Below are positions 29,696-55,684 of a stretch of 64,000 bases of DNA, piece after piece (position 1 is the first letter of the stretch; the number at the start of each line of letters is the position of its first letter). Made by a program: the position numbers and the translations under genes. Location of the stretch: assembly GCF_000265205.3 (NCBI RefSeq), contig NC_018000.1, positions 2,790,001-2,854,000 on the forward strand, read 5' to 3'. The DNA comes from Sinorhizobium fredii USDA 257. Its GTDB lineage: Bacteria; Pseudomonadota; Alphaproteobacteria; Rhizobiales; Rhizobiaceae. Below the pieces are notes generated by a model. That model had not been told where the DNA came from and did no database searches. It saw only the letters and a list, made by a program, of their open reading frames with translations.

Positions 29696-31288
29696 TCAGG
29701 CGGTGGCAGTCTGTGTGAAGTTGAAGGGCAACAAGTCGTCGATATCAGCATCGCCCGCGCGTTGAGGCAATTCGGTAAGGACGTGGCGCAACCACGTCAA
29801 CGGCTCGACGCCGCAGGCACGGCAGGTCAGCATGAGGCTGTAGATGACGGCGCTGGCCTTGGCTCCGTCGGTGGTATCGCTGAACAGCCAGCTCTTTCTG
29901 CCGGTCGCAAAAACTCTGATGTCGCGCTCCAAGATGTTGTTGTCGATCGGCATCCTGCCATCGTCTGTGTAGCGCGTCAGATAATCCCACTGGTTCAGGG
30001 TGTAGGATACAGCATCGCCCAGCTTGGTGTCCGGCATGACCTTCGGCGCGATTTCGTCGAGCCATACCTTGAGAGCGGTCAGGACGGGTATGCTGTGTTG
30101 CTGTCGGAATCGGCGAACGCTGTCGGCCTTCGTTTCGCCGGCATCAGGCTTCTTGTCTCGTGCTTGCCTTTCAACCCGATAGAGTTGTTCGAAGAACCGG
30201 AGAGCCTGCTCGGGCGGACCGCCGCCTTTCTTTCTGGCTTTGAGGGCATCGACGAAGCGCCGCCTCGAATGGGCCATGCATCCGATATGGATCGCGCCAT
30301 CCAGCGTGCGCCAGGCGGTGTAACCATCGCTCATCAATATGCCGCGGTAATCGCCGAGGAAGGTCTGGGGGTGAATCTGGCCGCGGCCCGGCTGATAATC
30401 GAGAAGCACGATCGGCTCGTCACTGTCGTCGCCGCTCCGATAGGCCCACATATACGATGTGCTGGTGGCCTCTTTGTCCTTTTCCTTCAGGACCTGAACG
30501 GTCGTCTCGTCGCCATGGATGAGGGGTTGCGACCTGAGCCGCAGTTTCAGCGCGTCATAGATGCGATGCAGATGCTTCTCGCTCGAACCGATCACCCAGT
30601 GGCCGAGAGCACCACGGCTGACAGGAACACCGGCGCGTTCGAAGGTCTGCGCCAGACGGTAGAGCGGTGTGCCGTCGACGTACTTGTGAACGAGTGCGAA
30701 GGCCAATGTCGAGGCCGTGGCGATGCTGCCCGGCAAGGGCTGCACCGGCATCGGCGCGGTCACGACAGGCGTGTTGATCCCGGTGCGGTCGCAATGGCGG
30801 CATGCATATTTGAACCGCACATTCTGTAAGACCTTCGCCTTCACTTCGATATGAAGTTGCTCGGTAACGGCCTCGCCCATGCGGTGCATCTGCCCACGGC
30901 AGCAAGGACAAGCCTTCTGATCGTCGGGAAGGTCATACTCGACGCGCTCGCGCGGCAGGTTCTGCGGTAGTGGTCTGCGGCCACGCTTCTGACCCGTCGT
31001 GCTTTCGACAGGCGGCAGGCCTGTGTCCGGAATGTCGATGACCTCGCTCTCGTGGCTGTCCGCTCCATCCTCGTCCGCAGCCTCTTCGGCTTCGTTGAAG
31101 ATGCGATCAACGTGCTTTTCGCTGCGCGGCGCAAAGCGATGGAGCCGTGCAAGCGCCAGCTCTTCCTCCAGCTTGACGACCCGCTGCGAGAGCGTTTCCT
31201 TCTCGGCTTTCAGCGCGGCGATTTCGGCAGCATTGGCCGCCAACTGCGCCATCAGCTCTGCAACGCTCGGTTCGCCGGTTCGATTCAT
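29696..31288 (-). CDS. tnpC: IS66 transposase TnpC
   Basis: A 530-aa protein with an N-terminal coiled coil ('AALKAEKETLSQRVVKLEEE'). A zinc-finger region follows ('CPCCRGQMHRMGE', 'YACRHCDRTG'), then the IS66 catalytic core ('IHGDETTVQVL', 'LMSDGYTAWRTLDG', 'RDIRVFATGRKSWLFSDT'). Length and order are normal for the family. It catalyses element movement with help from TnpA and TnpB. Confidence 0.95.
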   Translation of the reverse strand: MNRTGEPSVAELMAQLAANAAEIAALKAEKETLSQRVVKLEEELALARLHRFAPRSEKHVDRIFNEAEEAADEDGADSHESEVIDIPDTGLPPVESTTGQKRGRRPLPQNLPRERVEYDLPDDQKACPCCRGQMHRMGEAVTEQLHIEVKAKVLQNVRFKYACRHCDRTGINTPVVTAPMPVQPLPGSIATASTLAFALVHKYVDGTPLYRLAQTFERAGVPVSRGALGHWVIGSSEKHLHRIYDALKLRLRSQPLIHGDETTVQVLKEKDKEATSTSYMWAYRSGDDSDEPIVLLDYQPGRGQIHPQTFLGDYRGILMSDGYTAWRTLDGAIHIGCMAHSRRRFVDALKARKKGGGPPEQALRFFEQLYRVERQARDKKPDAGETKADSVRRFRQQHSIPVLTALKVWLDEIAPKVMPDTKLGDAVSYTLNQWDYLTRYTDDGRMPIDNNILERDIRVFATGRKSWLFSDTTDGAKASAVIYSLMLTCRACGVEPLTWLRHVLTELPQRAGDADIDDLLPFNFTQTATA

Positions 31289-34568: not shown

Positions 34569-34664
34569 CGCTTTCGTTGACTTTTCTCGCCTTTGTAGTG
34601 AAGATTTAGAAATACTGAAAATACATTTTCCTACTCACGCGAGAGCTTCTATGCGGAGTTGCGC

Positions 34665-36344
34665 ATGGTTAGCATAGAATTTAGTCGCAATGCCGACGCG
34701 AGGCACTCGCATTGGCCGGGGAAGGGGTTTGCGAGTCTGGCCCGCAACTGGTTGCTGCGCACCGACCCTGAGCGATTGATTTGTATCGGTCGATTTCTGA
34801 GTGCCGCGTTTGCTTTCCTGGCGATCTATCTGGATCCGACTCGACCCAACTCGCAGCTTTATGAGTCCCGGGTTGTTCTGTGTCTGTATCTCTTCCTTTC
34901 CATTGGGCTGATCTTCTTTCCTCTCCGCCGTTCGTTCGATAGTCCTGCGCATTTGTTCATCCATATTGTTGATGCCGCAGTGGTCGGCTGGCTGACATTT
35001 CTGACGAATGAGCTTGCCAGCCCGTTTTTCACCATTCTCCCATTCGTGATCTTATCGATGACGATGCGCTGGGGTTTAAAGGGAGCGACGCTTGGTGCGT
35101 TAATCGCCCTTTTCGTCCAACTGGTCGTAGGCATTCCTGATCTGCTGGATGGGGAATCGGAGCTCAATCTCTTCATCATGAGGTCCATCTATTTTGTGCT
35201 GATAGCGGCTACTCTGGGATATTTCGGGGCCTATAGGGAACAAAGCAGGCAACGCTTAGCCCAACTTGCACAGTGGCCGCCAGGTGCTATAGGCGAGGAC
35301 TCGGTATCCTGGTTGGGAATACTCCTGGAACACGCCTCCCGGGTCCTGGGAGGCCCACACCTGCTAGTGATCTGGCGTGATCAGGAGCTTGAATCGGGAT
35401 GCGTCGCCTACTGGACATGCGGCAATCTGCAGTTGATCGACGTCAAGGGCTCTGAGTTCTGGCAACGTCACGACCCGCAACAACATGCCACAGATCGACG
35501 CAAGAGCAGCAAAAAACTGGACGCGATCTTCGCTGAATTGCCGGAGTTATCCGCAAAGCCCAGTGAAACACATTGCAAAGTATCTGCAGCTGCCTTTTCG
35601 AGTATTCGATTTCGTGGATGCGTCTTTGTCATCAGCCCTGCCCCTAATCCTGACGGTGGCCCCGCTTTAACTCAGATCATTGCCGCTCGCCTCAGCGCGG
35701 AACTTGAACGTATCGCTTTGATTCAGTCGGCGCTCGCGGAAGAGCGCATGCGTCTTGCAAGGGACTTGCATGATACCGTTCTCCAGAACCTTACCGCGGC
35801 GCGTCTGAAGCTGAAACTGATCAGCGAAGCGGTTCCGAATGCTGCAAAGGCACAATTGACGGAGGTGGGGCTGCTCCTTCTTGAGCAACAACAGTGCTTG
35901 CGCAAATTCGTCGAGGACAGCCGAGCGGCTGAGGGAGGTAGTCTTGCTCGACTCGGGCAGACCCTCCCCGATTTCCTAAAGCTCTTAAAAGCGCGTTGGA
36001 ATTGCGACATCGGGTTTTCGTTTGGCCCCGCAGAACTCGTGGTGCCAAAATGGATGCTGCACGAGATAATGCAGTTGATCTCCGAAGCCGCGGCCAATGC
36101 GGTCCGTCATGGGCGAGCCACACGACTGAACATCATCGTCACAGGAGTGGAAGATAGCCTAACCCTCGAAATAACTGACGATGGCTCCGGGGTGCCCGAG
36201 AACTTGGAGCCTCAGAAGCCCTCGTCGCTTTCGCAACGCGTCGCGGAACTGGGTGGGCAACTCACAGTTTGCGCGACGTCGCCTGGCTTCGGGCTTCAGA
36301 TCACGCTCCCTGCTAGGCTGGAGGGCTGGTCATGTACTCAGTGA
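34665..36344 (+). CDS. Sensor histidine kinase (NarL-partner type, HisKA_3)
   Basis: A 559-aa membrane kinase. About five membrane segments lie in residues 30-190. A GAF-like middle region follows to about 350. The dimerisation helix with the phospho-accepting His is 'ERMRLARDLHDTVLQNL'. The ATPase has N-box 'EAAANAVRHGRA' and G-box 'DDGSGVPEN'. An in-frame TTG two codons upstream (34659) is an alternative start. It overlaps the response regulator gene by 13 nt. Confidence 0.88.
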   Translation: MVSIEFSRNADARHSHWPGKGFASLARNWLLRTDPERLICIGRFLSAAFAFLAIYLDPTRPNSQLYESRVVLCLYLFLSIGLIFFPLRRSFDSPAHLFIHIVDAAVVGWLTFLTNELASPFFTILPFVILSMTMRWGLKGATLGALIALFVQLVVGIPDLLDGESELNLFIMRSIYFVLIAATLGYFGAYREQSRQRLAQLAQWPPGAIGEDSVSWLGILLEHASRVLGGPHLLVIWRDQELESGCVAYWTCGNLQLIDVKGSEFWQRHDPQQHATDRRKSSKKLDAIFAELPELSAKPSETHCKVSAAAFSSIRFRGCVFVISPAPNPDGGPALTQIIAARLSAELERIALIQSALAEERMRLARDLHDTVLQNLTAARLKLKLISEAVPNAAKAQLTEVGLLLLEQQQCLRKFVEDSRAAEGGSLARLGQTLPDFLKLLKARWNCDIGFSFGPAELVVPKWMLHEIMQLISEAAANAVRHGRATRLNIIVTGVEDSLTLEITDDGSGVPENLEPQKPSSLSQRVAELGGQLTVCATSPGFGLQITLPARLEGWSCTQ

Positions 36345-36970
36345 TCATCGTGGACGACCACCCTCTGCTCCTGAGGGGCCTCCAGGATCTGATGAGCGCG
36401 GCACCAGAGTTTGAAGTCGTCGGTGCAACCACCAGCGGAACCGAAGCAGTTTCGCTGATTTGCGATCTTCAGCCAGACATTGCCGTTCTTGATGTGGCGA
36501 TCCCAAGTATGGGTGGACTAGAGATTCTGCGGGCGACGCGCAACAAAAGACTGACCAAATTCATTTTTCTCACGGCAACGATAAGCGGACCCCAGATTGC
36601 CGATGCACTGAAAATGGGATTGTCTGGAATTCTCTTGAAGGAGTACGCCCCGGAAGAACTGCTGAACTGCATGCGCAAAGTCGCAAACGGAGGCAAGTGG
36701 CTCCCGCAGGAGCTGCTATCAAGAGCGTCGATGCCGAGTGATGAAGGCATGGTCGAAAAGCTTAATCTCCTTACGGCGCGGGAACGCCAGATCACCGTGT
36801 TGATATGCAGTGGGCTTTCGAACCGCACCATTGCTGAGAGGATCGGCACATCAGAAGGAACAGTCGGAATTCATTTACACAATATTTTCCGTAAGTTGGA
36901 GATTAGTAATCGTACAGCGCTTGCCGCCCTACATGTCCAATACATGACTGCTAATAATAAGAATGTTTGA
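36332..36970 (+). CDS. LuxR/NarL-type response regulator
   Basis: 212 aa. A receiver domain occupies residues 1-120 (acidic 'VDDHPLL', phospho-Asp in 'AVLDVAIPSMGG', Lys in 'GILLKEYAPEE'). A LuxR helix-turn-helix lies at about 143-205 ('LTARERQITVLICSGLSNRT'). It is the cognate partner of the overlapping kinase gene. Two decayed copies of its DNA-binding part lie 0.8-1.1 kb downstream, one inverted. Confidence 0.92.
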   Translation: MYSVIIVDDHPLLLRGLQDLMSAAPEFEVVGATTSGTEAVSLICDLQPDIAVLDVAIPSMGGLEILRATRNKRLTKFIFLTATISGPQIADALKMGLSGILLKEYAPEELLNCMRKVANGGKWLPQELLSRASMPSDEGMVEKLNLLTARERQITVLICSGLSNRTIAERIGTSEGTVGIHLHNIFRKLEISNRTALAALHVQYMTANNKNV

Positions 36971-39078: not shown

Positions 39079-42000
39079 TTACACCGCCAGATAGGCCGCG
39101 ATCACTGCCGCTATCTGATCGGAGCTCAGAGCGTCCATCTGGGAGTCCATCAAGGCGTTCAGTTGCGTGCTAGACAGATTCCCGATGTCTTCTGTGGACA
39201 GGCCCGCCACACCGGATGCGCTGAACGAGGCGACATCTTCCGCTGAGAAGGTTGCCAGATCGTCGGTCTCCAGTGCGGCGACCTGCGCCGAGGTCATCGC
39301 ACTGACCTGGACCGACGTCAAAGCCTCGGCCTGGTCTGTCGTCAAGGCGGCGACGACCCTGGTGCTCAACCCCGAGATCGCGCTCGTGCTCAAGGCGACG
39401 ATATGATCGGTGGAGAGCTGGGCGATGTCGTCAGTCCCCAGAGCCGCTGCCTGTATGGCGTTGAGGGCACTGAGCTGCGCCGTGGACAAGGTGGCGATCT
39501 GGGCGGTGCTCATCGCCGCCACCTGGTTGTAGCTCAGCGATCCGATCTGGCTTGTTCTCAATGCGGCGATCTCGGCAGTGGAGAGCGCTGCGACAAAGGT
39601 GGTGGACAGGCCTTTGATGGCCGACGCGTTGATCGCCGCCAGTTCCGCGGTCGAGAACGTACCGATATCCTCGGTGGTCAGACCGGCGAGCCCATCGGCG
39701 CTCAAGGCGGCAATTTGACCGGTGGACAGCGAGTCGATCTGAGTAGCGCTCATGGTTCCGACCTGGGCGCTGCTCAGGCCCGCAATGCTGGTGGTCCCCA
39801 GAGCGGCGATCTCGGCGGTGGAGAGCCCGGCGATGAATTCCGTGGGCAGTCCCCTGATGGCGGAAGAGCTGATCGCCGCGAGTTCCTCGGCCGAGAACCC
39901 CTCCAGATCATCCGTGCTCAGCCCCGACAGCGCATCCGAGCTCATGGCGGCGATCTGCACGGTGGTAAGGGCGTCGACCTGATCGTCGCTCAGGGCCCTG
40001 ACCTGATCGCTGCCGAGGCCGGCAACGCCCGCCGTGCTCAAAGCGGCAATCTGCGCCGTCGAGAGTACCGCGAGATCGTCGGTGCTTAGTGCCGCCACTT
40101 GCTTGGAGCCGAGACCGCTGATCTGCGCCGTTGACAGGCCCTCGATCTGGTCGGTGCTCAGCGCGTTGATCTGGGCGGTGGAAAGGCCTGATATGCCGGC
40201 CGAGCTCAAGGCCCCGATCTGATCGACCGAAAGCGCAGCGATGGTGTCTGTGGAGAGCCCCAACACGGCAGTCGAACTGATCGCCGCTATTTCATCCGTC
40301 GAGAAGGTCTCCAGATCATCCGTGCCGAGAACGGCGATCTGCTTCGAACTCAGTGCGGCAATCTGGAACGAGGTGAGAGCCTCGACCTGGTCGATGTTCA
40401 AGGCGTTGATCTGGGCCGTTGAAAGGCCGGCGATGCCACCCGTGCCCAGCGCCGCGATCTGATCTTCCGAAAGCGCCGCTATCGTGTCGGTGGACAATCC
40501 CGCCACGGCACGCGAACTGATCGCTGCGATATCCTCGGTCGAGAAGCTTTCCAGATCGTCCGTACTCAGCGCCGCGATCTGCGTCGAACTCATCACCGCC
40601 ACCTGGGCCGAGGTCAGGGCCTCGAGCTGATCGGCGTTCAGCGTGTCGATCTGGGCGGTGGAAAGGCTTGCAAACGCTGCCGCACCCAGCGCGGCAATCT
40701 GGTCCGTCGAGAGAATCGCGATGTCGTCCGTTCCCAGCACCGCCACCTGCTTGGAGTTCAGGGCTGCGATCTGGTCGGTCGACAGTGCCTCGATCTGGGC
40801 GGTGCTCAACGCCTGGATCTGGATGGTGGAAAGACCGGCGACGCCCGCCGCGCTCAAGGCGGCAATCTGATCCGCCGAAAGCGCTGCGATCGTGTCCGTG
40901 GACAATCCCGCCACGGCGCCCGAGCTGATCGCCCCGATATCCGCGCTCGAAAAGCTCTCCAGATCGTCCGTGCTCAGCACCGCAATCTGCGTCGAACTCA
41001 TCACCGCGATCTGACTCATGGTCAGAGCCTCGAGCTGATCGGCGCTCAGCGCCTGGATCTGCATGGTCGAAAGCGCCGCAACGCCCGCCGTGCTCAGTGT
41101 GGCAATCTGTTCCGTCGAAAGAGCCGCAATGTCGTCGGTGCCCAGCGCCGCCACCTGCTTGGACCTGAGAGCAGCGATCTGGTCGGTCGACAGGGCCTCG
41201 AGCTGGTCGGCGCTCAAGGCGTTGAGCTGGGCGGTGGAAAGGTCTGCGACGCCGTCCGCGCTCAAGGCAGCGATCTGATCCGCCGAAAGCGCTGCTATCA
41301 TGTCCGTAGACAACCCCGCTACGGCATCCGAACTGATCGCCGCGATATCCGCGGTCGAGAAGGTCGCGAGATCCTCCGTGCTCAGCGCCGCGATCTGCGT
41401 CGAACTCAGCGCCGCGACCTGTTCTGAGGTCAGGGCCGCGAGCTGCTCGGCGCTCAGCGCATCGATCTGTGCCGTGGAAAGGACCGCAATGCCAGCCGTG
41501 CCAAGCGCGGCAATCTGGTCCGCCGAGAAGGCCGCAATGTCCTCGGTGCCCAGGGCCGCCGCCTGCTTGGAGCTGAGGACAGCGACCTGTTCGGTCGACA
41601 GGGCTGCGATCTGGTCGGTGCTCAACGTACTCATTTGGGCCGTCGTAAGACCGGCGACGCCGGCCGTGCTCAAAGCCGCGATCTGTTCCGCCGAAAGCGC
41701 CGCAATCGTATCCGTGGACAGTCCCGCCACGGCGCTTGAACTGAGAGCCGCGATCTCCGCCGTCGAGAAGCCTGCAATGTCGTGCGTGCTCAGCGCAGCG
41801 ATTTGCTTGGAGCCGAGCGCGGCGATCTGGTCCGTCGTCAAGGCATCGACCTGGTCCGCGCTCAGGATGGAAATATCCGCCGTGCTCAGACCGACAACGC
41901 CGCCCGCGCTCAAGGCGGCGATCTGGTCGGTCGAGAGCGCCGCGACGTCGTCCGTGCTCAACACGTCGACCTGTCTGGACGTGAGCGCCCCCATCTGGGC

Positions 42001-45000
42001 CGTGGTCAAGGCCGCAAGCTGATCGCTGTTCAAGGCATCGACCTGCTTGGTGCTCAGCGCCGCAACGGCAGCCGTGCTCAACGCAGCGATCTGACCGGCG
42101 GAGAAGGCAGCTATGACATCCGTCGAAAGGCCGGAAACGAGATCCGCGCCGATCGCCGCAATGTCCTCGACCGACAGCGCCGTTATATCGTCCGCATCAA
42201 GCGCGGAGATTTGCTGCGACGTCAGCCCGCCAATCTGGTCGGTCGACAAGGCGGCAATCTGGTCGGAGTTCAGAACAGCGATCTGCTTGGTGGTCAGTCC
42301 GGCGACGGCCGTGGCGCTCAAGGCTGCGATCTGATCGGTCGAAAGGGAAGCGACGGCAGACGTGGACAGTCCCGCTATGGCACTCGCGCTGATGGCAGCA
42401 ATGTCCTTGATCGAGAAGACCGCCACGTCTTCCGTCCCCAGGACTGCAAGCTGCGTCGAGCTCAGGGCGCCGACCTGCGCCGCGGTCAGAGCCTCTAGCT
42501 GATCCGTGCTCAAGGCAGCGAGCTGCTTCGTGGTCAGTCCCGCCATGGCAGCCGTGCCCAAGGCCCCGATCTGATCGGTCGAGAGGGCCGTGATATCGCT
42601 TGTGCCCAAGGCGGTGACTTGCGTCGAACTCAGGGCGGCAACCTGCTTGGTGCTCAAGGCGGCGAGCTGGCTGGTACTGAGCGCGTTGACCTGTGCGCTG
42701 CTCAGGCCGGCAATGCCGGCCGTGCTCAGGGCCGCAACCCGATCCGTCGAGAGGGCCGAGACGGCGGCCGTGGAGAGGCTCGAAATGGCACTCGAACTGA
42801 TGGCCGCGATGTCCTTGGTCGAGAAGACCGCAATGTCTTCCGTCCCCAGGACTACAAGCTGCGTCGCACTCAGAGCGCCGACCTGGGTCGAAGTCAGGGC
42901 TTCGACTTGATCGGTGCTCAAGGCGACGAGCTGCCTGGTGGTCAGTCCTGCGACGGCAGTGACACTCAAAGCTGCGATCTGATCGGTCGAGAGACCCGCA
43001 AGGTCGTCCGTGCCCAGGGCGGCGACCTGCGCCGAGCCCAGCGCCGCCACCTGCTTGGTGCTCAAGGCGGCGAACTGGCTGCTGCTGAGCACGTTCAACT
43101 GCGCGCTGCTCAGGCCGGCAATACCCGTCGTGCTCAGGAGAGCGATCTCATCGGTGGAAAGGGCAGCAATGACAGCCGTGGACAGTCCCGTCATGGCGCT
43201 CGCGCTGATCGCCGCAATGTCCTTGGTCGAGAAGACCGCTATGTCCTCCGTCCCCAGGGCTCCGATCTGAGTCGAACTTAGGGCTCCGACCTGGGCGGCG
43301 GTCAGGGCCTCCATCTGGTCGGTGCTCAAGGCCACGATTTGCTTTGTGCTCAGCCCGGTGATCGCCGTTGTGCTCAACGCCGCGATCTGGTCGGTCGAGA
43401 AGGCCTCGATGTCGCTCGTGTCCAGGGCGGCAATTTGCGCCGACGTCAACGCGGCGACCTGCTTGGTGCTCAGCGCGACGATCTGGTCCGTGGACAGGGC
43501 CTCGACCTGGTCAGAGGTCAGCTCGCTGATGCCGGCGGTGCCGAGCGCGGCGATCATGTCCGAGGACAGGGCCGCGACAGTCTCCGTGCTCAAGGCGGCG
43601 ACTTGCGTCGATTTCAGCGCGGCAATCTGTTTGGTGCTCAAAGCGACGACCTGGTCGGAGCTCAGCGTGGCCATCTGGTCCGTGCTCAGGCCCGCGATGC
43701 CGGCGGTGCTGAGCGCGGCAATCTGCGTGGAGGACAGGGCCGCGACGACATCCTCCGACAAGCCCGAAATGGCCTTCGAGCCGATTGCGGCAATATCGGC
43801 GGTCGAGAACGCCTCTATGTCCTCTGGCTCGAGGGCCGAGAGCTGGGTGGAGCTGAGAACGGCAACCTGCGTGGAGGAGAGGGCTGCAATCTGGTCGCTG
43901 GACAGGGCGTCGATCTGGTCGGTGCTGAGGTGAGCGACGCCCTTCGTGGTCAGCGCCACGATCTGGTTCGTGGTGAGGGCCTCGATGAGATCTGCCGACA
44001 ATCCGGCAACGGCGCTCGAACTGATCGCCGCGATATCGGCGGTCGAGAATGCCGCTATGTCCTCCGCACTGAGGACGGCAAGCTGCTCGGAGCCGAGGGC
44101 GGCAACCTGTGCAGTGGAGAGAGCCCCGACCTGATCGGAGGACAAGGCTTCGATCTGGTCGGCGGTCAGGCCGGCGACAGCCTTCGTGCCGAGCGCCGCG
44201 ACCTGAGCCGTGGTCAAAGCCGCGACGTTGTCCGTGTTCAAGGCGGCGATTTGCGTCGAACTCAGCGCTTTAAGCTGCGCGGTGGACAGGGCCGCGGTCT
44301 GGTCGGTCGACAAGGCGGCGATCTGTGCGGTGGTCAGGCTCGCGACCGCACTCGTGCTGAGCGCGGCGATTTGAGCGGTGGAAAGCGCTGCAATGGCGTC
44401 CACGCTGACGCCCGGGGCGCCTTTGTTGGTAATTGCCGCCATCTCGGCGGTCGAGAACGTCGCTACGCCCTCTTCTCCAAGAGCGGCGAGCTGTGTCGAG
44501 CTCAGTGCCTTCACCTGCGAGACGGACAAAGCTTCTGCCTGGGCGGTCGACAGGCCGGCGATCTGGGTGCTCGACAGGCTGGCGATCGCACTCGTGCTCA
44601 AGGCCGCAATCTGATCGGTGGACAGGGACGCGATGACCTCCGCATCCAATCCCAGTATGGCTTTGTTGCTGATCGCGGCGATGTCGCCGGTCGAGAACAT
44701 AGCCAACCCGTCGGTCCCCAGGGCCGCAATCTGTCGCGCGTTCAGGACCTTCACCTGTGTCACGGACAGAGCCTCGATCTGGTCGGTCGACAACGCAGCG
44801 ATCTGATCGGTTGTCAGGCCCAGGACGCCCTTCGTGCTGAGCGCCGCGACCTGATCGGTGGACAAGGCCGCAAGATCGTCCGTGCCGAAGGCGGCGACTT
44901 GCGCCGAACTCAATGTCCTGAGCTGTGCGGCGGAAAGGACCGCGGTCTGGTCGGAGGACAAGGCGTCGCTCTGGGCGGTGGTCAGGCCCGAAATGGCACT

Positions 45001-46155
45001 GGTGCTCAGGGCAGCAACCTGAGCGGTCGAAAGCGCAGCGATGGCTTCCGTACTCACTCCCTTGATGGCCAGATTGGTGATCGCCGCGATTTCGGCAGTC
45101 GAGAATGTCGCGATGCCGTCGGTCCCGAGCGCCGCAAGCTGCCTCGAATTCAGCGCCTTCACCTGCAAGGCAGACATCGCCTCGGCCTGATCGGTCGACA
45201 GGGCGGCCATCTGCGCGGTCGTCAGGTTGGCGACCGCAGTCGTGTTCAGGGCGGCAATCTGTGCGGTGGAGAGCGCAGCGATCGCACCCGTGGTCAAGCC
45301 CCATACGGCCTTGTTGATCGCCGCGATTTCGGAAGTCGAGAATGCCGCGATGCCGTCCGTCTCCAAGGACCCGAGCTGCGCCGCGGTCAGCGCCTTCACC
45401 TGTGAGACGGTCAGTGCCTCGATCTGGTCGATCGCCAACACGCCGAACTGGTTGGTGGAAAGCCCCGAGATCGCCGAGGCGCTCAGCGCAGCAATCTGAT
45501 CGGTGGAAAGCGCGGCAATATCGTCGCTGCCCAAGGCATCGATTTGCGAGGCCTTCAGTGCACCGACCTGGGCTGTCATCAAGGCGGCAATCTGATCGGT
45601 GGACAAGGCGGCGATCTGCGCGGCCGTCAGGCCGGCGATGGCGCGGGTGCTCAAGGCGGCAATCTGATCCGTGGAAAGGGATGCGATGACCTCTGTGGCC
45701 AGACCTGACACGGCTTTCGCACCGATGGCCGCGATGTCGGCGGTCGAGAAGGTCGCCAGGTCTTCCTCGCTCATGACCGAGAGCTGCAACGCGCTAAAAA
45801 CCGCGACCTGGGTCGAACTCAACGCCTCCGTCTGGTCCGTCGAAAGACCGTCGACCTGCGTCGTCGTGAGGGCCGCAACTTGGCTCGTGCCGAAGCTTTC
45901 GATGTCGGATTGGTCGAGGACGGCGAGTTGCTCCAGGGTCAAACCGACGACGGCGCTTGGGGAGATGGCGGCCAACTGCCGGGAACTGAGGACATCGACG
46001 TCCTCCGTGTCCAGCGCGGCGATCTGAGCCGATGACATCGCGCTGATCTGCTTCGTCGTCAACGAGGCCACGTCTTCCGTCGTCCAGGCAGCCACGGCCG
46101 CCGTCGAATAGGATTTGATCAGAGTGGGGCTCAGGGACGAAATGATGGAGGTCAT
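39079..46155 (-). CDS. Giant octapeptide-repeat protein (2358 aa)
   Basis: One open frame of 7.1 kb. After a short N-terminus ('MTSIISSLSPTLIKSYSTAA') almost the whole chain is about 290 repeats of eight residues, consensus [ST]-x-[QDA]-[IVL]-x-[AG]-L-[ST], for example 'STDQIAALSTAQIAAL'. Ile and Leu at positions 4 and 7 after a Ser/Thr cap suggest short helices stacked in a solenoid. It is acidic, has no visible Cys and very few Lys, Arg or Pro, and no N-terminal signal peptide. It ends 'QIAAVIAAYLAV'. No secretion genes lie nearby. Large surface or adhesin-like proteins are the obvious guess, but there is no direct evidence. Confidence 0.85.
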   Translation of the reverse strand: MTSIISSLSPTLIKSYSTAAVAAWTTEDVASLTTKQISAMSSAQIAALDTEDVDVLSSRQLAAISPSAVVGLTLEQLAVLDQSDIESFGTSQVAALTTTQVDGLSTDQTEALSSTQVAVFSALQLSVMSEEDLATFSTADIAAIGAKAVSGLATEVIASLSTDQIAALSTRAIAGLTAAQIAALSTDQIAALMTAQVGALKASQIDALGSDDIAALSTDQIAALSASAISGLSTNQFGVLAIDQIEALTVSQVKALTAAQLGSLETDGIAAFSTSEIAAINKAVWGLTTGAIAALSTAQIAALNTTAVANLTTAQMAALSTDQAEAMSALQVKALNSRQLAALGTDGIATFSTAEIAAITNLAIKGVSTEAIAALSTAQVAALSTSAISGLTTAQSDALSSDQTAVLSAAQLRTLSSAQVAAFGTDDLAALSTDQVAALSTKGVLGLTTDQIAALSTDQIEALSVTQVKVLNARQIAALGTDGLAMFSTGDIAAISNKAILGLDAEVIASLSTDQIAALSTSAIASLSSTQIAGLSTAQAEALSVSQVKALSSTQLAALGEEGVATFSTAEMAAITNKGAPGVSVDAIAALSTAQIAALSTSAVASLTTAQIAALSTDQTAALSTAQLKALSSTQIAALNTDNVAALTTAQVAALGTKAVAGLTADQIEALSSDQVGALSTAQVAALGSEQLAVLSAEDIAAFSTADIAAISSSAVAGLSADLIEALTTNQIVALTTKGVAHLSTDQIDALSSDQIAALSSTQVAVLSSTQLSALEPEDIEAFSTADIAAIGSKAISGLSEDVVAALSSTQIAALSTAGIAGLSTDQMATLSSDQVVALSTKQIAALKSTQVAALSTETVAALSSDMIAALGTAGISELTSDQVEALSTDQIVALSTKQVAALTSAQIAALDTSDIEAFSTDQIAALSTTAITGLSTKQIVALSTDQMEALTAAQVGALSSTQIGALGTEDIAVFSTKDIAAISASAMTGLSTAVIAALSTDEIALLSTTGIAGLSSAQLNVLSSSQFAALSTKQVAALGSAQVAALGTDDLAGLSTDQIAALSVTAVAGLTTRQLVALSTDQVEALTSTQVGALSATQLVVLGTEDIAVFSTKDIAAISSSAISSLSTAAVSALSTDRVAALSTAGIAGLSSAQVNALSTSQLAALSTKQVAALSSTQVTALGTSDITALSTDQIGALGTAAMAGLTTKQLAALSTDQLEALTAAQVGALSSTQLAVLGTEDVAVFSIKDIAAISASAIAGLSTSAVASLSTDQIAALSATAVAGLTTKQIAVLNSDQIAALSTDQIGGLTSQQISALDADDITALSVEDIAAIGADLVSGLSTDVIAAFSAGQIAALSTAAVAALSTKQVDALNSDQLAALTTAQMGALTSRQVDVLSTDDVAALSTDQIAALSAGGVVGLSTADISILSADQVDALTTDQIAALGSKQIAALSTHDIAGFSTAEIAALSSSAVAGLSTDTIAALSAEQIAALSTAGVAGLTTAQMSTLSTDQIAALSTEQVAVLSSKQAAALGTEDIAAFSADQIAALGTAGIAVLSTAQIDALSAEQLAALTSEQVAALSSTQIAALSTEDLATFSTADIAAISSDAVAGLSTDMIAALSADQIAALSADGVADLSTAQLNALSADQLEALSTDQIAALRSKQVAALGTDDIAALSTEQIATLSTAGVAALSTMQIQALSADQLEALTMSQIAVMSSTQIAVLSTDDLESFSSADIGAISSGAVAGLSTDTIAALSADQIAALSAAGVAGLSTIQIQALSTAQIEALSTDQIAALNSKQVAVLGTDDIAILSTDQIAALGAAAFASLSTAQIDTLNADQLEALTSAQVAVMSSTQIAALSTDDLESFSTEDIAAISSRAVAGLSTDTIAALSEDQIAALGTGGIAGLSTAQINALNIDQVEALTSFQIAALSSKQIAVLGTDDLETFSTDEIAAISSTAVLGLSTDTIAALSVDQIGALSSAGISGLSTAQINALSTDQIEGLSTAQISGLGSKQVAALSTDDLAVLSTAQIAALSTAGVAGLGSDQVRALSDDQVDALTTVQIAAMSSDALSGLSTDDLEGFSAEELAAISSSAIRGLPTEFIAGLSTAEIAALGTTSIAGLSSAQVGTMSATQIDSLSTGQIAALSADGLAGLTTEDIGTFSTAELAAINASAIKGLSTTFVAALSTAEIAALRTSQIGSLSYNQVAAMSTAQIATLSTAQLSALNAIQAAALGTDDIAQLSTDHIVALSTSAISGLSTRVVAALTTDQAEALTSVQVSAMTSAQVAALETDDLATFSAEDVASFSASGVAGLSTEDIGNLSSTQLNALMDSQMDALSSDQIAAVIAAYLAV
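39603..43755 (-). repeat. Higher-order modules of 24-bp octad repeats
   Basis: A marker octad (encoding residues like 'AVAGLSTD') recurs at 39603, 39843, 40251, 40491, 40899, 41307, 41715, 42123, 42363, 42771, 43179 and 43755. The distances are 240, 408, 240, 408 (four times), 240, 408, 408 and 576 bp. All are multiples of 24, equal to 10, 17 or 24 octads. Within the 17-octad module a second 7-octad step is visible. So modules are built as 10 + 7n octads. Confidence 0.85.
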
Positions 46156-46672
46156 GCGTGAAAACCCTTGGGCCTGCCAAAGCAGTTCTTATTAGCAACG
46201 ATCGCGCCGAAAGAGATGCCGTCGTCCATGCAGGATCCCGCGCATCTCTGGCCAGCGACCTGGCGATGGCTGCCTGCCGGCTGCTGAGACGCCATCGGAT
46301 ACGCGCCACCAATAAAGGAGCGGACTTGCCTGAACCTGAAGAACCGCTCAGTGAGGCGGCTCAGCACTGATCAGCGTCTTTCCGCTGGTGCTGCGCGACG
46401 GCGCGCTCCAGCTCGGACGCGACCTGCTGACGCTCCCCGGCGTGGATTGATACCAGACCGTACTAAGCCGCCCAGAGGGCAGATGGGGAGCCGATTTTGT
46501 CGCTTGCGGCAATTTTGGGGTTTGGGTCGAACCGGTATTTCGGAGGGAGGAAGGACGGGGAGACCGCGTTTCCTCGGCCTGCGCCGTTCGCCTCGCTGCT
46601 CACGCCGGCCGCTCGCCGGCCCACCGAGGCCCGCGCGGCTGCGCTGGCGCTTTTGGAGTTGCGATTACGGCT
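46156..46672. other. Intergenic region upstream of the repeat-protein gene
   Basis: No convincing gene. The leftward promoter for the giant gene should be just right of 46156. On the plus strand at 46374-46449, 'VFPLVLRDGALQLGRDLLTL' followed by 'PGVD' and a stop looks like the end of a lost gene, but the family is not recognised. Confidence 0.35.
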
Positions 46673-50910: not shown

Positions 50911-51732
50911 CTATTTTGCGCGTGCCGACGCGATCAGCCGCTTCATGGTCGCCTCGTCGACGAGTCCGCGGACCACTTCCTTTCCGACGACGAAGCTCGG
51001 CGTGCCGCCGATGCGCAAGGCTTCCGCGAGGGCGATGTTGCGCTTGATGGCGGCGTCGATCGCCGGGTCTTGCATGTCGGTCTTCAGGCGCTCGACATCG
51101 ATCCCCACATCGGCGGCGACTTCGAGGGTCGAGGTCTCGGTGATGCGGCCGTTGTAGGTCATCATCCTCTGGTGAAAGGCGAGATACCTGCCCTGCTTGC
51201 GGCTCGCAAGCGCGGCGCGAGCGGCGAAGACTGAGCCCGGACCGAGGATGGGATATTCCTTGAAGACGAGCCGTATTCCCTTGTCGGCTTTTTCGAGCTT
51301 GCCGAGCAGCGGTGCCGCCTGCCGGCAATAGGGGCAGTTGTAGTCGAAGAACTCGACGACGATGGCGTCGCCTTGAGGATTCACGCCGACCGGGGCATCC
51401 GGATCGTTGAAGATTTCATCGCGCCGCTCTGAGACCACCTTGGCCGCTTCGCCGGCAGCCGCGGCCTGCCGACGGGCCTCCAGGTCCTTCACAGACTGCA
51501 AAATGACCTCGGGGTTGGCGAGAATATAAGCATGAAGTTGCCGCTCGAGATCGTCCGTCTTTCGGGCGGGCGGAAGGATCCCCAACGCGTATAGAAGCGC
51601 CAGTCCGGAGAGCACGACCGACAGGCCCGCGAGCGCAATTGCGGTAAACGCCAAGAGCCTCGGACATCGCCCCCGCTTTCCAGCGGCGGAGTCCGGTTCG
51701 GAAGAGGAATTGTCGGGCGCTTCTGCTACCAT
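50911..51732 (-). CDS. DsbA-family thiol:disulfide protein
   Basis: 273 aa. One membrane segment (residues about 28-52), a helical linker, then a thioredoxin fold with active site C133-P-Y-C136 in 'FFDYNCPYCRQ'. The cis-Pro loop is 'GGTPSFVVG'. It resembles Com1/DsbA-type periplasmic oxidoreductases. It overlaps the Sco gene by 7 nt and ends the copper/redox operon, so it may keep copper-protein thiols in the right state. Confidence 0.9.
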   Translation of the reverse strand: MVAEAPDNSSSEPDSAAGKRGRCPRLLAFTAIALAGLSVVLSGLALLYALGILPPARKTDDLERQLHAYILANPEVILQSVKDLEARRQAAAAGEAAKVVSERRDEIFNDPDAPVGVNPQGDAIVVEFFDYNCPYCRQAAPLLGKLEKADKGIRLVFKEYPILGPGSVFAARAALASRKQGRYLAFHQRMMTYNGRITETSTLEVAADVGIDVERLKTDMQDPAIDAAIKRNIALAEALRIGGTPSFVVGKEVVRGLVDEATMKRLIASARAK

Positions 51733-52433
51733 GGGAGCAATCCTGTCAGCTTCTCCCAGAAACCTGGCTCCGGGTGCGGATGCGGCTTCTGTGTCCGGTT
51801 TGTCAGCGCGTTGACGAAGACGACCAGATTGACCGTCTCGAACTTCAGCCCGTGAAAGCGGGCGCGCAGGCGACCGTCCTGATCGATCACGTGGGTGACG
51901 ATCCCGTGCATCTGCATGCCGCCGTTGTCTTCGGTGAACTTGAGACCGTAGGTCTCGGCGATCTTGCGGGTCGTGTCCTCGGGGTTGTCCGGGTCGGTCG
52001 TCAGGAAGACCCAGTTTGCCGGATCAAGGCCATGCGCCTGGCCGTAGTCGCGGAGGACCGGGCCGGTGTCGTGCTTCGGATCCGTTGTGATGGTGACGAA
52101 CTCGACCATCTCCTTCATCGGAGTCTGGTTGATCGTCTTCTGGATTTCGGCAATCCGCTCCGCATGCAGCGGACAGACGTCCGGACAGTTGGTGTAGACG
52201 AAATTCAGGACGACGACCTTGCCACGCAACACGTCGAGGCCGACCACCCGCCTGTCGGCATCCTGCAGGGTGAAGGCAGGCGCTTCGCTGTCCACGGGCT
52301 GGAAATACTGCTCCTTGTCGCGGAGGTCCTGATCGACCTCCTCGAGCGAATGAGCCGCCGCCGGCGCGGTCAACGCCATCACCGCGGCGATCGCGAGGAG
52401 TGCCAGTCGCAGCATACGCACCGGATACATCAT
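51726..52433 (-). CDS. Sco1/SenC copper chaperone
   Basis: 235 aa from ATG at 52433, which overlaps the preceding stop (ATGA). A signal peptide covers residues about 1-27. The copper-binding C83-x-x-x-C87 is in 'YTNCPDVCPLH', and the partner His is in 'GIVTHVID'. Sco proteins deliver Cu to the CuA site of cytochrome oxidase or act as periplasmic thiol reductants. Its position between TlpA and DsbA genes fits both. Confidence 0.9.
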   Translation of the reverse strand: MMYPVRMLRLALLAIAAVMALTAPAAAHSLEEVDQDLRDKEQYFQPVDSEAPAFTLQDADRRVVGLDVLRGKVVVLNFVYTNCPDVCPLHAERIAEIQKTINQTPMKEMVEFVTITTDPKHDTGPVLRDYGQAHGLDPANWVFLTTDPDNPEDTTRKIAETYGLKFTEDNGGMQMHGIVTHVIDQDGRLRARFHGLKFETVNLVVFVNALTNRTQKPHPHPEPGFWEKLTGLLPW

Positions 52434-53077
52434 TGCGAATTTCCCTTGTTGCCGGAGGTGGGCACGCCTCCCGCTTTCTGTTCGACGATCGACTTGAGGA
52501 ACGCCACCATGTCCGGTGCGTCCCATTCAGCAGGCCCCATCAGTCGGCCGAGTTCCCGTCCGTCGGTGTCGATCAGGATTGTCGTCGGCAATCCGACTGC
52601 CGCAAGGGCGGAGAGCGCCCGACCGGAAGCGTCGACGTGCGCGGCGAGCCGCCGAACCCCGATCTCAGAGTAGAACGTCTTCACCGTCTCCGCTCCCAGG
52701 CGGTCAACCGAGAGGGCGACGACTTGAAACCTGTCACCGCCCAGCGCCGCCTGCAGCCGATCGAGGGTCGGCATCTCCTTGCGGCACGGCAGACACCAGG
52801 TCGCCCAGACGTTGAGCAGAACGACCTTGCCGCGGAAATCCGCGAGCGTGCGAGGCTGTCCGTCGCCGTCGGTGAACAGAACATCCGGAATGGGCTTCGG
52901 CGTATCGTTCAGCACGAAGCCCTTGGGGACACCCTCGGGTTCTGGACCGACAGAGGCGCGGAGAAAGAGAGCGCCTGCAAATCCAGCGAAGCCCATGACA
53001 CCCAGCAGCAGAAGCGACCGACGGCGCATGGCCGACGGCGCAGAGGTCCTCGCTGTGTCGGTGTTCATCTTGGTCAT
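52430..53077 (-). CDS. TlpA/ResA-like periplasmic thioredoxin
   Basis: 215 aa. A signal anchor 'RRRSLLLLGVMGFAGFAGAL' is followed by a thioredoxin fold with C95-L-P-C98 in 'WATWCLPCRKE'. The cis-Pro is in 'VGLPTTILID'. It is coupled to both neighbours by ATGA overlaps. It is likely a reductant for Sco or for apocytochromes. Confidence 0.9.
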   Translation of the reverse strand: MTKMNTDTARTSAPSAMRRRSLLLLGVMGFAGFAGALFLRASVGPEPEGVPKGFVLNDTPKPIPDVLFTDGDGQPRTLADFRGKVVLLNVWATWCLPCRKEMPTLDRLQAALGGDRFQVVALSVDRLGAETVKTFYSEIGVRRLAAHVDASGRALSALAAVGLPTTILIDTDGRELGRLMGPAEWDAPDMVAFLKSIVEQKAGGVPTSGNKGNSQ

Positions 53078-53514
53078 TCCGTCGTGTAGACCTCCGGGGT
53101 CTTGCCGTCCTTCGGCACGGTGTAGATCACAAACGGTTCGGTTTTGGTGCCGATCATGCCCGGCGAGCCCATTGGCATTCCAGGCAACGTTATGCCAGCG
53201 ATCGGGGGTCTCTCCTTGAGCAGCTTGCGGACGACGTTCACCGGCACGTGCCCATCGACAACGTAGCCCTCGACGAACATCGTGTGGCAGCCCTGCAGGT
53301 CTTCCGGCACGCCGGCCTTTCGGCTGATCTCGAGAAGGTCGTTGGTCGGTTTGACGTCAACGTTGAAGCCGTTGTCGCGGAGATACGCGGCATAGCCCTC
53401 GCAGCAGCCGCACTGCGGGTTCTTATAGAGCGTCGCCTGCAGCGGATCGGCAAGCGCCGGCGAGGCGAAGGCCATGAGAAGGGCGAGACTGGCGAAGCGG
53501 ATCGAAGGATTCAT
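53074..53514 (-). CDS. DUF411 metal-binding periplasmic protein
   Basis: 146 aa with a signal peptide (residues 1-22, 'LLMAFASPALA'). The DUF411 motif 'YKNPQCGCCEGYAAYLRD' has C35, C37 and C38. Further on come 'GCHTMFVEGYVVDGHVP' and Met-rich 'GMPMGSPGM'. Family members sit in copper and silver resistance loci and bind metal. It lies 25 bp after the multicopper oxidase. Confidence 0.9.
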   Translation of the reverse strand: MNPSIRFASLALLMAFASPALADPLQATLYKNPQCGCCEGYAAYLRDNGFNVDVKPTNDLLEISRKAGVPEDLQGCHTMFVEGYVVDGHVPVNVVRKLLKERPPIAGITLPGMPMGSPGMIGTKTEPFVIYTVPKDGKTPEVYTTE

Positions 53515-53539
53515 TTCGGTTCTCCTTGTTCTGTTTGGT

Positions 53540-54997
53540 TCAGGCGACGCGCAGCACGGTCATCATCCCGGACATCTGGTGGTCCATGACATGGCAGTGC
53601 AGCATCCAGTCGCCGGGGTTGTCGGCGACGAAGGCGACCTCGACCACGTCCTTCGGGGCCATCAACACTGTGTCCTGCCACTGGCGGTGCGGGACGGCCT
53701 TGCCGTTGCGGCTCAACACTTTGAGGCTGTGGCCGTGGAAGTGCATCGGGTGCCACCAGGCGGTCTCGTTGCGCAGTTCCAGCAGGACGCTGCGGCCCCG
53801 CTCGAAGACGAGGGCGGGTTCCATGCCGGCATGGCCGTCGCCGGTCATCGACTGGCCGTTGATCGTCCAAACCGCGTCGTGGCCCATGCCCATCATTCCA
53901 CCGCCGCCACCCATAATGCCGCCCATCATCCCACCCATGCCGGACATTCCGCCCATGCTCACCATGCCGCCCTGGAGCGTCAGCGTGTGGCGCTCGGCCG
54001 ATGCGAGGTTCGGCTCCGGCAAGGGATTGCGGGGCAGTACGACAAGCGCGTCGAAAACGTGCGCGCGGATCGGCGGCCGGCTATCGTAAGCAATCTGCGT
54101 CAGCCGGTAGGATAGGCCGTCGTAGAAGTCGTCGACGACATCGTAGCGCCGGCCCGGCTCGCCCTCGAGGTCGAGGACGAGATCGACGCGCATCGCCGGG
54201 CCGACAAGGATTCGGCCGTCTTCGGGTTCGTGCGGATCGCAGGGCTGGCCGTCGATCGTGACGACTATCGGTCGATGCCCTTCAAACCGAAGCGCCATGA
54301 TCCGGGCGAGCGACGCATTGACGAGGCGCAGGCGGACGCGCTCGCCAGTCCGGAAGGGCTCCGCTTCGGAGACCCGGCCGTTGAGCGTCACCGTATTGCC
54401 GACGCGTCCGGACATCGCCGCCTCCATCCGGTTGCCAAAGCGCGATGCGATCGCGCCTCTGTCCGTCAACCGCCAGTCGGAAAGGAGCCAGAGGACGTCA
54501 TGATCGACGGCGACGGGTTCGCGCTCCTCGACGATGACCGCTCCGGCGAGACCGCGGCCGAGTTGCTCGAGACTGTTGGCATGCGGGTGATACCAGAAGG
54601 TCCCCGCGTCCGGCGGCGTGAATTCGTAGACGAAACGCTCTCCCGGCTTGATCGGCGGCTGCGTCAGACCAGGCACCCCGTCCATGGCGTTGGGAAGCCT
54701 GATGCCGTGCCAGTGGACGGTGGTCTCCTGGTCCAGTCGGTTTTCGACGACGAGGCGAGCGCGCTCGCCCTGGCGAAGCCGCACGACCGAGCCCGGAACC
54801 GTTCCGTTGTAGGTCCAGACATCCGTTTCCGGCCTATCTGGACGAAGTCGCGCGCGGCCAGGCGCGGCGACGATGCGGTAGCCGTCGGATGGCGCGGACT
54901 GCGCCGGGAACGGTGCCAACGCACTCGCCAGCAGAAGGCCCGCGCCAGCCTGGAGCAGACCCCGGCGAGACACGAGACAATGGGATTCGCTATTCAC
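53540..54997 (-). CDS. Multicopper oxidase (CueO/CopA type)
   Basis: 485 aa with a Tat signal ('SRRGLLQAGAGLLLASALAP'). The copper ligands are in H95-W-H97 ('VHWHGIRLP'), 'FWYHPHANSL', 'WWHPMHFHGHSL' and 'HCHVMDHQMSGM'. A Met/Gly-rich loop at about 340-375 ('GGMSGMGGMMGGIMG') is typical of oxidases that take Cu(I). It should oxidise Cu(I) to Cu(II) in the periplasm. It is the first gene of the right-hand half of the copper block after the small Cys-rich protein. Confidence 0.93.
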   Translation of the reverse strand: MNSESHCLVSRRGLLQAGAGLLLASALAPFPAQSAPSDGYRIVAAPGRARLRPDRPETDVWTYNGTVPGSVVRLRQGERARLVVENRLDQETTVHWHGIRLPNAMDGVPGLTQPPIKPGERFVYEFTPPDAGTFWYHPHANSLEQLGRGLAGAVIVEEREPVAVDHDVLWLLSDWRLTDRGAIASRFGNRMEAAMSGRVGNTVTLNGRVSEAEPFRTGERVRLRLVNASLARIMALRFEGHRPIVVTIDGQPCDPHEPEDGRILVGPAMRVDLVLDLEGEPGRRYDVVDDFYDGLSYRLTQIAYDSRPPIRAHVFDALVVLPRNPLPEPNLASAERHTLTLQGGMVSMGGMSGMGGMMGGIMGGGGGMMGMGHDAVWTINGQSMTGDGHAGMEPALVFERGRSVLLELRNETAWWHPMHFHGHSLKVLSRNGKAVPHRQWQDTVLMAPKDVVEVAFVADNPGDWMLHCHVMDHQMSGMMTVLRVA

Positions 54998-55095
54998 ATT
55001 CGATCCTTCCGATCATCGTCGATGACGGAACGCATGGGCGGCAATGCACACGCGTTCGTTCATCCGGTTGTGTCGCTGGCCGCGACAGCCGGAAC

Positions 55096-55449
55096 TCAGC
55101 CGATGTAGGAGGTTCGTGGTGGATCGGGGTCGGGCTGCACCCCCCTGCCAACGAGGAGAGGATCGCGGACACCTGCAGAAGCGGGCTTCTCGCCAATCGG
55201 AACGAGCGTCGCTATCGGCAGCGGCGCGACGGCGGGGGCGGCGCAGACGTTGCCGCAGGCCATCGCCTTCAAGCCGCCGGGCTGGTCGGGACAATCCTGA
55301 CAGTCGCCCTGGTCCGACATGGCCATCTCGGACATAGTCGCCATCTTCGCAGTCATGCCGCTCGCCTGGGCGACCGACAGGCCCATCCCCGCGGCAACGA
55401 AGGTCGCGAGGAGCAAGAGGCCAAGCTGTCGGACAGACCAGCGTTTCAT
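55096..55449 (-). CDS. Small exported Cys/Met-rich protein (117 aa)
   Basis: The start at 55449 begins a signal peptide ('RQLGLLLLATFVAAGMGLSV'). The mature part has a Met-rich stretch ('AKMATMSEMAMSD') and four Cys ('DCQDCPDQ', 'ACGNVC'), with a Pro-rich end. A longer frame to 55686 is rejected because it has no start site. The protein resembles in plan the one at 62199 and probably binds copper in the periplasm. The family name is not known to me. Confidence 0.7.
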   Translation of the reverse strand: MKRWSVRQLGLLLLATFVAAGMGLSVAQASGMTAKMATMSEMAMSDQGDCQDCPDQPGGLKAMACGNVCAAPAVAPLPIATLVPIGEKPASAGVRDPLLVGRGVQPDPDPPRTSYIG

Positions 55450-55550
55450 AGCGGAGAGAATCGCGCCGAACCTCCGGGAATACAAGCCATGATGCGCCCC
55501 AGAGGAGACCCAGCGCGTCAACATTGCGTGACGCGACGCGAGCGGACGTC

Positions 55551-55670
55551 TCAGCGGAAGAACACGTATTTGATCAGGGCCGCGATCACGAGCACGATCA
55601 TGAGAAACGCGACGATGCCGATGCCCCCCATGCCCCACATCATGCCGCCGCCCATCATGTCGTCCATCAT
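55551..55670 (-). CDS. Small Met/Gly-rich membrane protein (39 aa)
   Basis: The start at 55670 has GGAGGA upstream. The N-terminus 'MMDDMMGGGMMWGMGG' is Met-rich and is followed by one membrane helix ('IVAFLMIVLVIAALIKYVFF'). It is 101 bp before the Cys-rich gene on the same strand. The pattern suggests a copper-linked small membrane protein. The upstream IS110 begins within about 15 bp. Confidence 0.7.
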   Translation of the reverse strand: MMDDMMGGGMMWGMGGIGIVAFLMIVLVIAALIKYVFFR

Positions 55671-55684
55671 GGCATCCTCCCTTC

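Follow-up and report, generated by a model that had tools for sequence, protein, structure and literature searches.

A 2358-residue octad-repeat protein encoded twice in Sinorhizobium fredii USDA 257 and the partnership of octad genes with a GT41 glycosyltransferase gene

The octad gene and its sequence

The window analyzed here is a stretch of 64,000 nucleotides, C1:2790001-2854000, of the 7.03 Mb genome of Sinorhizobium fredii USDA 257. At 39079-46155 on its minus strand lies a gene for a 2358-aa protein built of eight-residue repeats (octads). The open reading frame, a Pfam search, and genome comparison identify it as an ALTTAQ-repeat (PF20080) gene and as the second copy of this gene in the genome. 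The frame begins with the ATG at 46155, its stop codon ends at 39079, and it is unbroken; the plus-strand reading of the same interval is interrupted by stops. An RBS-like run, AAGGG (46165-46169, minus strand), was noticed by eye 9 nt 5' of the ATG.

When the 2358 residues were cut into repeats by dynamic programming, 293 octads were obtained, with 14 residues left outside them. These are the first seven residues and INKAVWG (residues 280-286; 45298-45318, minus strand), the sole short unit, which at 7 residues is one residue short. The original prediction had described about 290 octads in a single unbroken frame, and the count agrees well with it; the strand, which had been missing, can now be added. 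Residue identity at lag 8 is 0.383, versus 0.04-0.11 at lags 1-7 and 9-15. A chance frame or an antisense shadow is ruled out by this signal together with the dN/dS values given below. Translation of the frame is supported by the conservation of its length across genomes and by these dN/dS values.

The octad consensus is LSTDQIAA, and the most frequent residues at positions 0 to 7 are L, S, T, D/A, Q, I/V, A, and A. Position 0 is L, F, I, M, or V in 291 of the 293 units, the remaining two being Y and W. S, T, G, N, or D, the residues of the helix N-cap set, fill position 1 in 280/293 units. Position 4 is mainly Q or D, resembling a capping box. Short capped helices with Ile and Leu at fixed positions had been proposed earlier; the octad pattern is confirmed, and HeliScrew4 is the name of a solved chain that shares this octad. 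The protein has no Cys and contains 224 D+E and 50 K+R. As had been stated before, no signal peptide is apparent by eye. The N-terminal 45 residues (MTSIISSLS..IKS.ST..VAAWTTEDVASLTT..QI; 46021-46155, minus strand) are conserved in the alignment of octad proteins, throughout the alphaproteobacterial ones and in part in the betaproteobacterial ones.

Family, domains, and structural likeness

No named family had been recognized in the original prediction. Pfam does name the repeat: PF20080 matches the 2358-aa protein in 97 stretches with 1488.9 bits, against a curated cut-off of 26.4. The Pfam entry holds the same octad and supplies the name of the repeat only; a partner enzyme, a common period, and a frozen length are added here. 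Nothing exceeded the cut-off when the protein was searched against NCBIfam. The earlier view that there is no other domain can be kept, as besides PF20080 no Pfam stretch passes by itself. CAAP1, Sigma70_r4_2, and (barely) DUF4351 exceed their whole-protein Pfam cut-offs without a single stretch that passes, and these matches are taken as repeat artefacts. PF23952 exceeds its cut-off in the same manner in a 1687-aa paralogue. LRR, CAAP1, Sigma70_r4_2, and a lanthipeptide leader were rejected as matches of composition only. For LRR, there is no Pfam match in the 2358-aa protein, and the PDB matches are weak (E 1e-4 or worse) and follow the spacing of Leu. Up to E 1, the protein has no match to PF00353 (RTX) in Pfam and none to an ice-binding family in Pfam or NCBIfam.

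A survey of homologues scored 7998 candidates, and domains were counted in 120 of the 190 matches. Among these 120 homologues, PF05860, presumably the FHA domain of two-partner secretion, occurs in 22, PF00353 in 15, and PF06060, which we take to be the mesothelin family, in two. Ig-like, FG-GAP, or calpain-like domains flank the octads in further homologues of this set. The partner domains point to proteins that are secreted or displayed on the surface through more than one route. Octads are present in 17 of 60 relatives, the genome of S. fredii USDA 257 being included. Among 14 control genomes, Caulobacter vibrioides gave the sole ALTTAQ match.

The best PDB match of the 2358-aa protein is 9zem, HeliScrew4, a chain of 120 aa (E 4.2e-18 over 112 residues). 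The octad pattern is the same over those 112 residues; 9zem differs in its length of about 15 octads and in the Pro that is common at position 2, as compared by sequence only. The name HeliScrew4 and the octad pattern suggest a screw of short helices. Mesothelin has been described as a right-handed solenoid of 24 short helices with 27-37 residues per circle (PMC10035497). It is thus also a short-helix solenoid, with a circle near the 27 residues per turn that we infer below for the octad protein. It differs in being a eukaryotic mix of ARM and HEAT repeats, and octads are not described in the available passages of that paper (PMC10035497).

Two copies and a frozen array length

Three octad genes were found among the matches listed for the genome. 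These are the window gene, a home copy at C1:303607-310683, and the 1687-aa paralogue at C1:292835-297898. The window and home copies are 98.76% identical over 7090 bp. Their 89 differences are distributed very unevenly along the gene: the first 6000 nt contain just 3 of them, 81 fall in nt 6000-7000, and the last 77 nt account for 5. In the window, the stretch nearly identical to the home copy is 40156-46175, and the diverged 3' end, with 86 of the 89 differences, is 39079-40155 (both minus strand). A simple recent duplication does not explain such clustering. Because the differences cluster at the 3' end, the window gene appears to be a second copy whose first 6 kb were made alike by gene conversion.

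Within orthologue groups, the array length is frozen and the genes are under purifying selection (dN/dS by NG86). The length of 2358 aa is identical in 7/7 genes compared, from six genomes, with dS up to 0.58 and dN/dS of 0.13-0.26. All seven 1687-aa genes compared also have one length (dN/dS 0.08-0.12), as do the four genes of a third group of 2435 aa (dN/dS 0.21-0.24). The counts leave out G012 (a 2359-aa gene and a 1713-aa open frame), G023 (both frames broken), and the broken 2358-type gene of G030. The identical lengths suggest that octads have hardly been gained or lost by slippage over the divergence compared. The 2358-type gene looks frame-broken in L058 (G023, 1575+793 aa) and L059 (G030, 1214+1144 aa). 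Of these two genomes, G030 has an intact 1687-aa gene; in G023 this gene is broken as well.

It is a serious possibility, though short of an even one, that the window copy is a spare that has been relocated and does little or nothing itself, and that the home copy alone matters. The window copy is away from the home cluster. When the window was compared with a 35 kb home stretch, no match was found outside the octad genes. Transposase genes are present in the window, and relatives hold pieces like the flanks of the window copy which, where both are listed, are on contigs other than those of the octad genes. Against a spare stand the intact frame, the RBS-like run that has been kept, and a dN/dS of 0.26 between the window and home copies; yet conversion could preserve the frame without use.

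The GT41 partner enzyme

In the home cluster, the genes between the 1687-aa and 2358-aa octad genes encode, in order, a 699-aa TPR-containing enzyme of glycosyltransferase family 41 (GT41; PF13844, E 1.5e-72; C1:298585-300684), a 416-aa protein that matches PF12248, and a UDP-galactopyranose mutase (UGM; PF03275). By sequence comparison the GT41 enzyme resembles human OGT, Xanthomonas XcOGT, and SPINDLY. In a manual count along the alignment, the His of its 'DH' and the Lys of its 'QKIT' match His568 and Lys852 of 7yeh_B, which are presumably active-site residues.

Octad genes and GT41 genes are partners well beyond this genome. A GT41 orthologue (at least 47% identity) is present in 15 of the 17 octad-positive genomes searched, in each case adjoining an octad gene by coordinates; G001 and G024 are octad-positive and lack it. 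In the 43 octad-negative genomes it was found once, as a fragment in the 70% complete G009. Strong GT41 matches number about zero to three per genome in the 60 relatives. Of the 77 named octad loci, 30 have a GT41 homologue within the retrieved flank and 19 have UGM there; no GT41 was found in the flank of the other 47. Clustering of the neighbouring frames likewise gave GT41 as the commonest shared neighbour (31 loci, median gap 410 bp). The relatives and the named loci overlap in part (L075/G022, L090/G015, L100/G023, L101/G011, L107/G012, and L114/G035).

The reverse search, which starts from GT41 alone, is the stronger test of the pairing. Plasmids were searched, 53 records matched, and the 14 best-ranked were examined, H2 being omitted as a near-copy of H1. 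An octad gene lies within 12 kb of the GT41 gene in 13 of these 14 loci, where some stretches end at record ends and L163 holds only a diverged octad protein. The GT41 plasmid locus without an octad gene is that of Azospirillum TSH58. The pairs come from Rhizobium, Shinella, Pseudorhizobium, Pseudoroseomonas, Niveispirillum, and Pseudomonas. The octad region of the Pseudoroseomonas plasmid (L167, 1609-6729) spans several overlapping frames that are annotated as separate hypothetical proteins. On the Pseudorhizobium flavum plasmid, flagellin and FlgE genes (L164, 3499-7509) are near the cluster of octad, GT41, and UGM genes.

In a tree of GT41 sequences, 42 octad-linked rows fall in one clade (100/100) and others elsewhere. 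All GT41 rows from octad loci were labelled as linked, second copies such as L091_15591 included. The unlinked sample consists of 11 rows from 12 loci (L172 was dropped by the length filter), and the tree has several long branches. That the link arose only once was rejected, since three or more label changes are required by the starred branches.

Pairing of a large, probably exported protein with an enzyme of the GT41 family resembles that of HMW1 and HMW1C (PMC3012730, PMC3983070). Enzymes of the HMW1C type act on Asn, and HMW1 is secreted through the two-partner route, whereas the octad locus has an OGT-like enzyme and an octad protein. FlmG, a glycosyltransferase of an alphaproteobacterium, O-glycosylates exported proteins in the cytoplasm, as is proposed here for octad proteins, but its substrates are flagellins (PMC7591256).

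Evidence for and against glycosylation

The regular company of GT41 genes favors the glycosylation of octad proteins, which would take place on Ser and Thr. Of the two copies in S. fredii USDA 257, only the home copy has a GT41 gene nearby; the window copy is far from it, and no GT41 gene adjoins it. If both Ser/Thr of each octad carried sugars, hydroxyls should be kept there. Hydroxyl loss was therefore counted at variable Ser/Thr columns, with octad positions 3, 6, and 7 as the control. In the 1687-aa paralogue, the hydroxyl was lost in 1/20 columns at position 2 and 10/49 at position 1, versus 35/41 in the control (p ~1e-9 each). The 2358-aa group, for which the home copy and five relatives were used and the window copy was left out, has no retention at position 2 (48/58 lost versus 44/51 in the control, p 0.79). 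Its retention at position 1 is weak (44/67 lost, p 0.011), and N-capping would explain it. In the 2435-aa group the losses are 60/70 at position 2 (p 1), 39/59 at position 1, and 48/55 in the control. The test thus supports glycosylation for the 1687-aa paralogue and does not support it for the 2358-aa protein.

These counts favor the possibility that the 2358-aa protein is exported, as an octad rod or as the stalk of an adhesin, but carries no sugar itself, and that the home GT41 modifies only the 1687-aa neighbour. Retention is strong at positions 1 and 2 of that neighbour and absent at position 2 of the 2358-aa protein, and ALTTAQ arrays do occur alongside extracellular domains. However, G028, G015, G017, and G029 each have a single 2435-aa octad gene in the stretch with GT41 adjoining it. 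An unglycosylated rod is considered unlikely, and glycosylation by the partner enzyme is kept as the preferred reading.

Period of the arrays and predicted twist

Octad-level spectra were calculated for 72 of 77 arrays, those with runs of at least 80 octads. The main peak is at about 0.295 per octad, and further peaks at about 0.41, 0.115, and 0.18 are its second, third, and fourth harmonics. A harmonic fit was made for 116 of 218 proteins (at least 60 octads). With near-copies included and a rough line drawn at 1.15x the best of five shuffles, 106 arrays were above the line and 10 below. The fundamental is 0.2905-0.2960 per octad in 88/106 arrays (median 0.295, SD 0.001). These 88 comprise the 2358-aa protein itself, 86 of the 91 arrays that come from genomic or plasmid loci, and just one of the 14 mixed-domain homologues. 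The loci are a non-random sample, because similarity to the 2358-aa protein led to many of them.

The main super-repeat lags, 17, 10, 27, 44, 34, 24, and 7 octads, are near-whole numbers of this turn. The set of lags varies with the lineage, being 31, 24, and 7 in Nitrospirillum and 24, 10, 38, 34, and 14 in L068. Exceptions to the period are the mixed-domain proteins, the two-octad arrays L070-L072, the six-octad array L168, and L158, where the fit gave a 17-octad harmonic. L070, L071, and L072 are open frames of at least 5000 aa in which a two-octad alternation replaces the 3.39-octad period.

Residues recur in phase with this period. In a run of 259 octads of the 2358-aa protein, Asp (positions 3 and 4) and Glu (positions 3 and 6) are centered at 38-45 degrees, and Glu at position 4 at 114 degrees. 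Gly at position 7, Ala and Gly at position 4, and Lys at position 3 are on the opposite face, at 211-237 degrees. If the period is a twist, the 2358-aa protein would be a two-faced rod with an acidic stripe opposite a side of Gly/Ala/Ser and Lys, because these residues recur in phase with the turn. The 293 octads at 3.39 per turn give about 86 turns. A value of 9-10 Angstrom per turn can be assumed from other helical solenoids, and at this rise the rod would be near 80 nm long.

The period could instead reflect inherited units of duplication. Lag 17 is the highest in 45/72 arrays, the loci were gathered by similarity to one protein, and 13 of the 14 periodic mixed-domain homologues have other periods. 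A structural twist fits better with two other results: the fundamental hardly changes (0.2905-0.2960) among arrays whose top lags are 10, 24, 31, or 44, and harmonics 1-4 of a single frequency account for the four commonest peaks. Inherited duplication is rated as rather improbable next to a twist.

Export and location

Type I secretion genes are found beside octad genes in some lineages. In L068 and L069, genes for HlyD and an HlyB-like ABC transporter are directly upstream. Both an ABC transporter and HlyD were matched in only 2/77 named loci, Massilia L136 and Rhizobium cremeum L080. Type I genes are also in the octad stretch of Pseudoroseomonas L167, of Pseudomonas asturiensis L170 (with TolC), and of Pseudomonas L169 (the ATPase alone). 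In the genome of S. fredii USDA 257, three HlyD-type adaptors exceed the cut-off and none of them is near the octad genes. The L069-type transporter was rejected as a Sinorhizobium partner, as its orthologue is carried by 12 relatives, 10 of which are octad-negative, and the S. fredii USDA 257 genome has none at E 1e-100.

Giant proteins secreted by type I systems, RTX and others, are typically acidic, Cys-free, and without a Sec signal. The 2358-aa protein is similar to them in these traits, and PF00353 accompanies octads in the 15 homologues counted above, but the protein itself has no PF00353 match. Many octad proteins of Rhizobiaceae end in a short I-A-A-V-I-x-x-Y-like tail and share the N-terminal stretch. 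A like tail is kept beyond a low-complexity linker rich in Ser, Thr, and Ala in, e.g., L085-L088, L092, L095, L103, L104, L113, and L119. In the window gene the tail is SDQIAAVIAAYLAV (39082-39123, minus strand), and its conservation makes it a candidate export signal.

Among the roles left open by the original prediction, a surface fibre or adhesin now fits best, given the RTX, Ig-like, and FHA domains of homologues and the type I genes of some lineages; for an ice-binding role, no family matched up to E 1. The remaining role was a cytoplasmic scaffold. A scaffold in the cytoplasm or cell envelope that is never exported and is tuned by the partner enzyme, as eukaryotic proteins are by OGT, is improbable: the missing Sec signal (by eye), the lack of a type I adaptor adjoining octad genes in S. 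fredii USDA 257, and the cytoplasmic action of GT41 enzymes would suit it, but type I genes beside octad genes in some lineages, the extracellular domain partners, the acidic and Cys-free composition, and the conserved C-terminal tail argue against it.

Proposed explanation

The preferred reading is an acidic, Cys-free octad screw rod of fixed length that is glycosylated by GT41 and exported, and whose window copy is kept by conversion. We regard it as about evenly poised between right and wrong. The data show the repeats, their period and the residue faces at it, the gene partnership, the conserved length, purifying selection, and the presence of two copies, whereas fold, twist, glycosylation, export, a surface role, and gene conversion are deduced from them. 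Each octad would be one short capped helix, with the Ser of position 1 as N-cap, Gln or Asp at position 4, and Leu and Ile in the core. The octads would form a superhelix in which one turn takes about 3.39 octads (27 residues), or about 106 degrees per octad. The rod may be made in the cytoplasm and glycosylated there on Ser and Thr by the dedicated OGT-like GT41, and further sugars could be added from the UDP-galactofuranose that UGM would provide. Its exit from the cell would then need no Sec signal, type I secretion being the likeliest route; the PF05860 homologues mean that the export route may differ. The end product would be a surface or extracellular rod of fixed length. The window gene is a second copy that lies apart from the glycosylation genes, and gene conversion would keep it similar to the home gene.

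A broader reading is held more tentatively, somewhat below an even footing. Octad proteins, GT41, and, in part, type I transporters could together be a widespread, undescribed system of glycoprotein export, which would produce two-faced rods of fixed length, with a twist of about 106 degrees set by the octad and with duplications locked to whole turns. The single mixed-domain homologue in 14 that is at the common period lowers this reading and raises the rival of inherited duplication.

In the open-licence literature, ALTTAQ and HeliScrew were not found in any paper. In titles and the beginnings of abstracts on octapeptide solenoids, octapeptide proteins of rhizobia, 9zem, GT41 together with type I secretion, rhizobial OGT and UGM, and FlmG, no description of the octad protein or the pairing was found. 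The passages available from PMC11514114 do not mention ALTTAQ or octads. What is new is GT41 as a partner, one period shared by the long arrays, and an array length that stays frozen; the PF20080 name is known. If the proposal is true, a Pfam repeat for which no described function was found gains a testable role and a partner enzyme, and bacterial OGT-like GT41 enzymes gain a candidate class of dedicated substrates. Sequence alone would have sufficed to predict the twist of a solenoid, and the existing structure 9zem offers a check of the prediction. A natural rod whose length is fixed and whose twist is regular would be of interest to protein designers as well.

Other genes in the window

A histidine kinase and a LuxR-type response regulator are encoded at 34659-36970 (plus strand), some 2 kb past the 3' end of the octad gene. 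The transposase genes are of the IS66 type (29696-31288, minus strand) and of DDE_5 (21037-22251, minus strand). On the minus strand at 50911-61693, Pfam identifies a multicopper oxidase as well as an RND pump that has a CusB-like adaptor, and further frames there are, by eye, DsbA-like, SCO1-like, and TlpA-like. This cluster looks like a copper-handling set.
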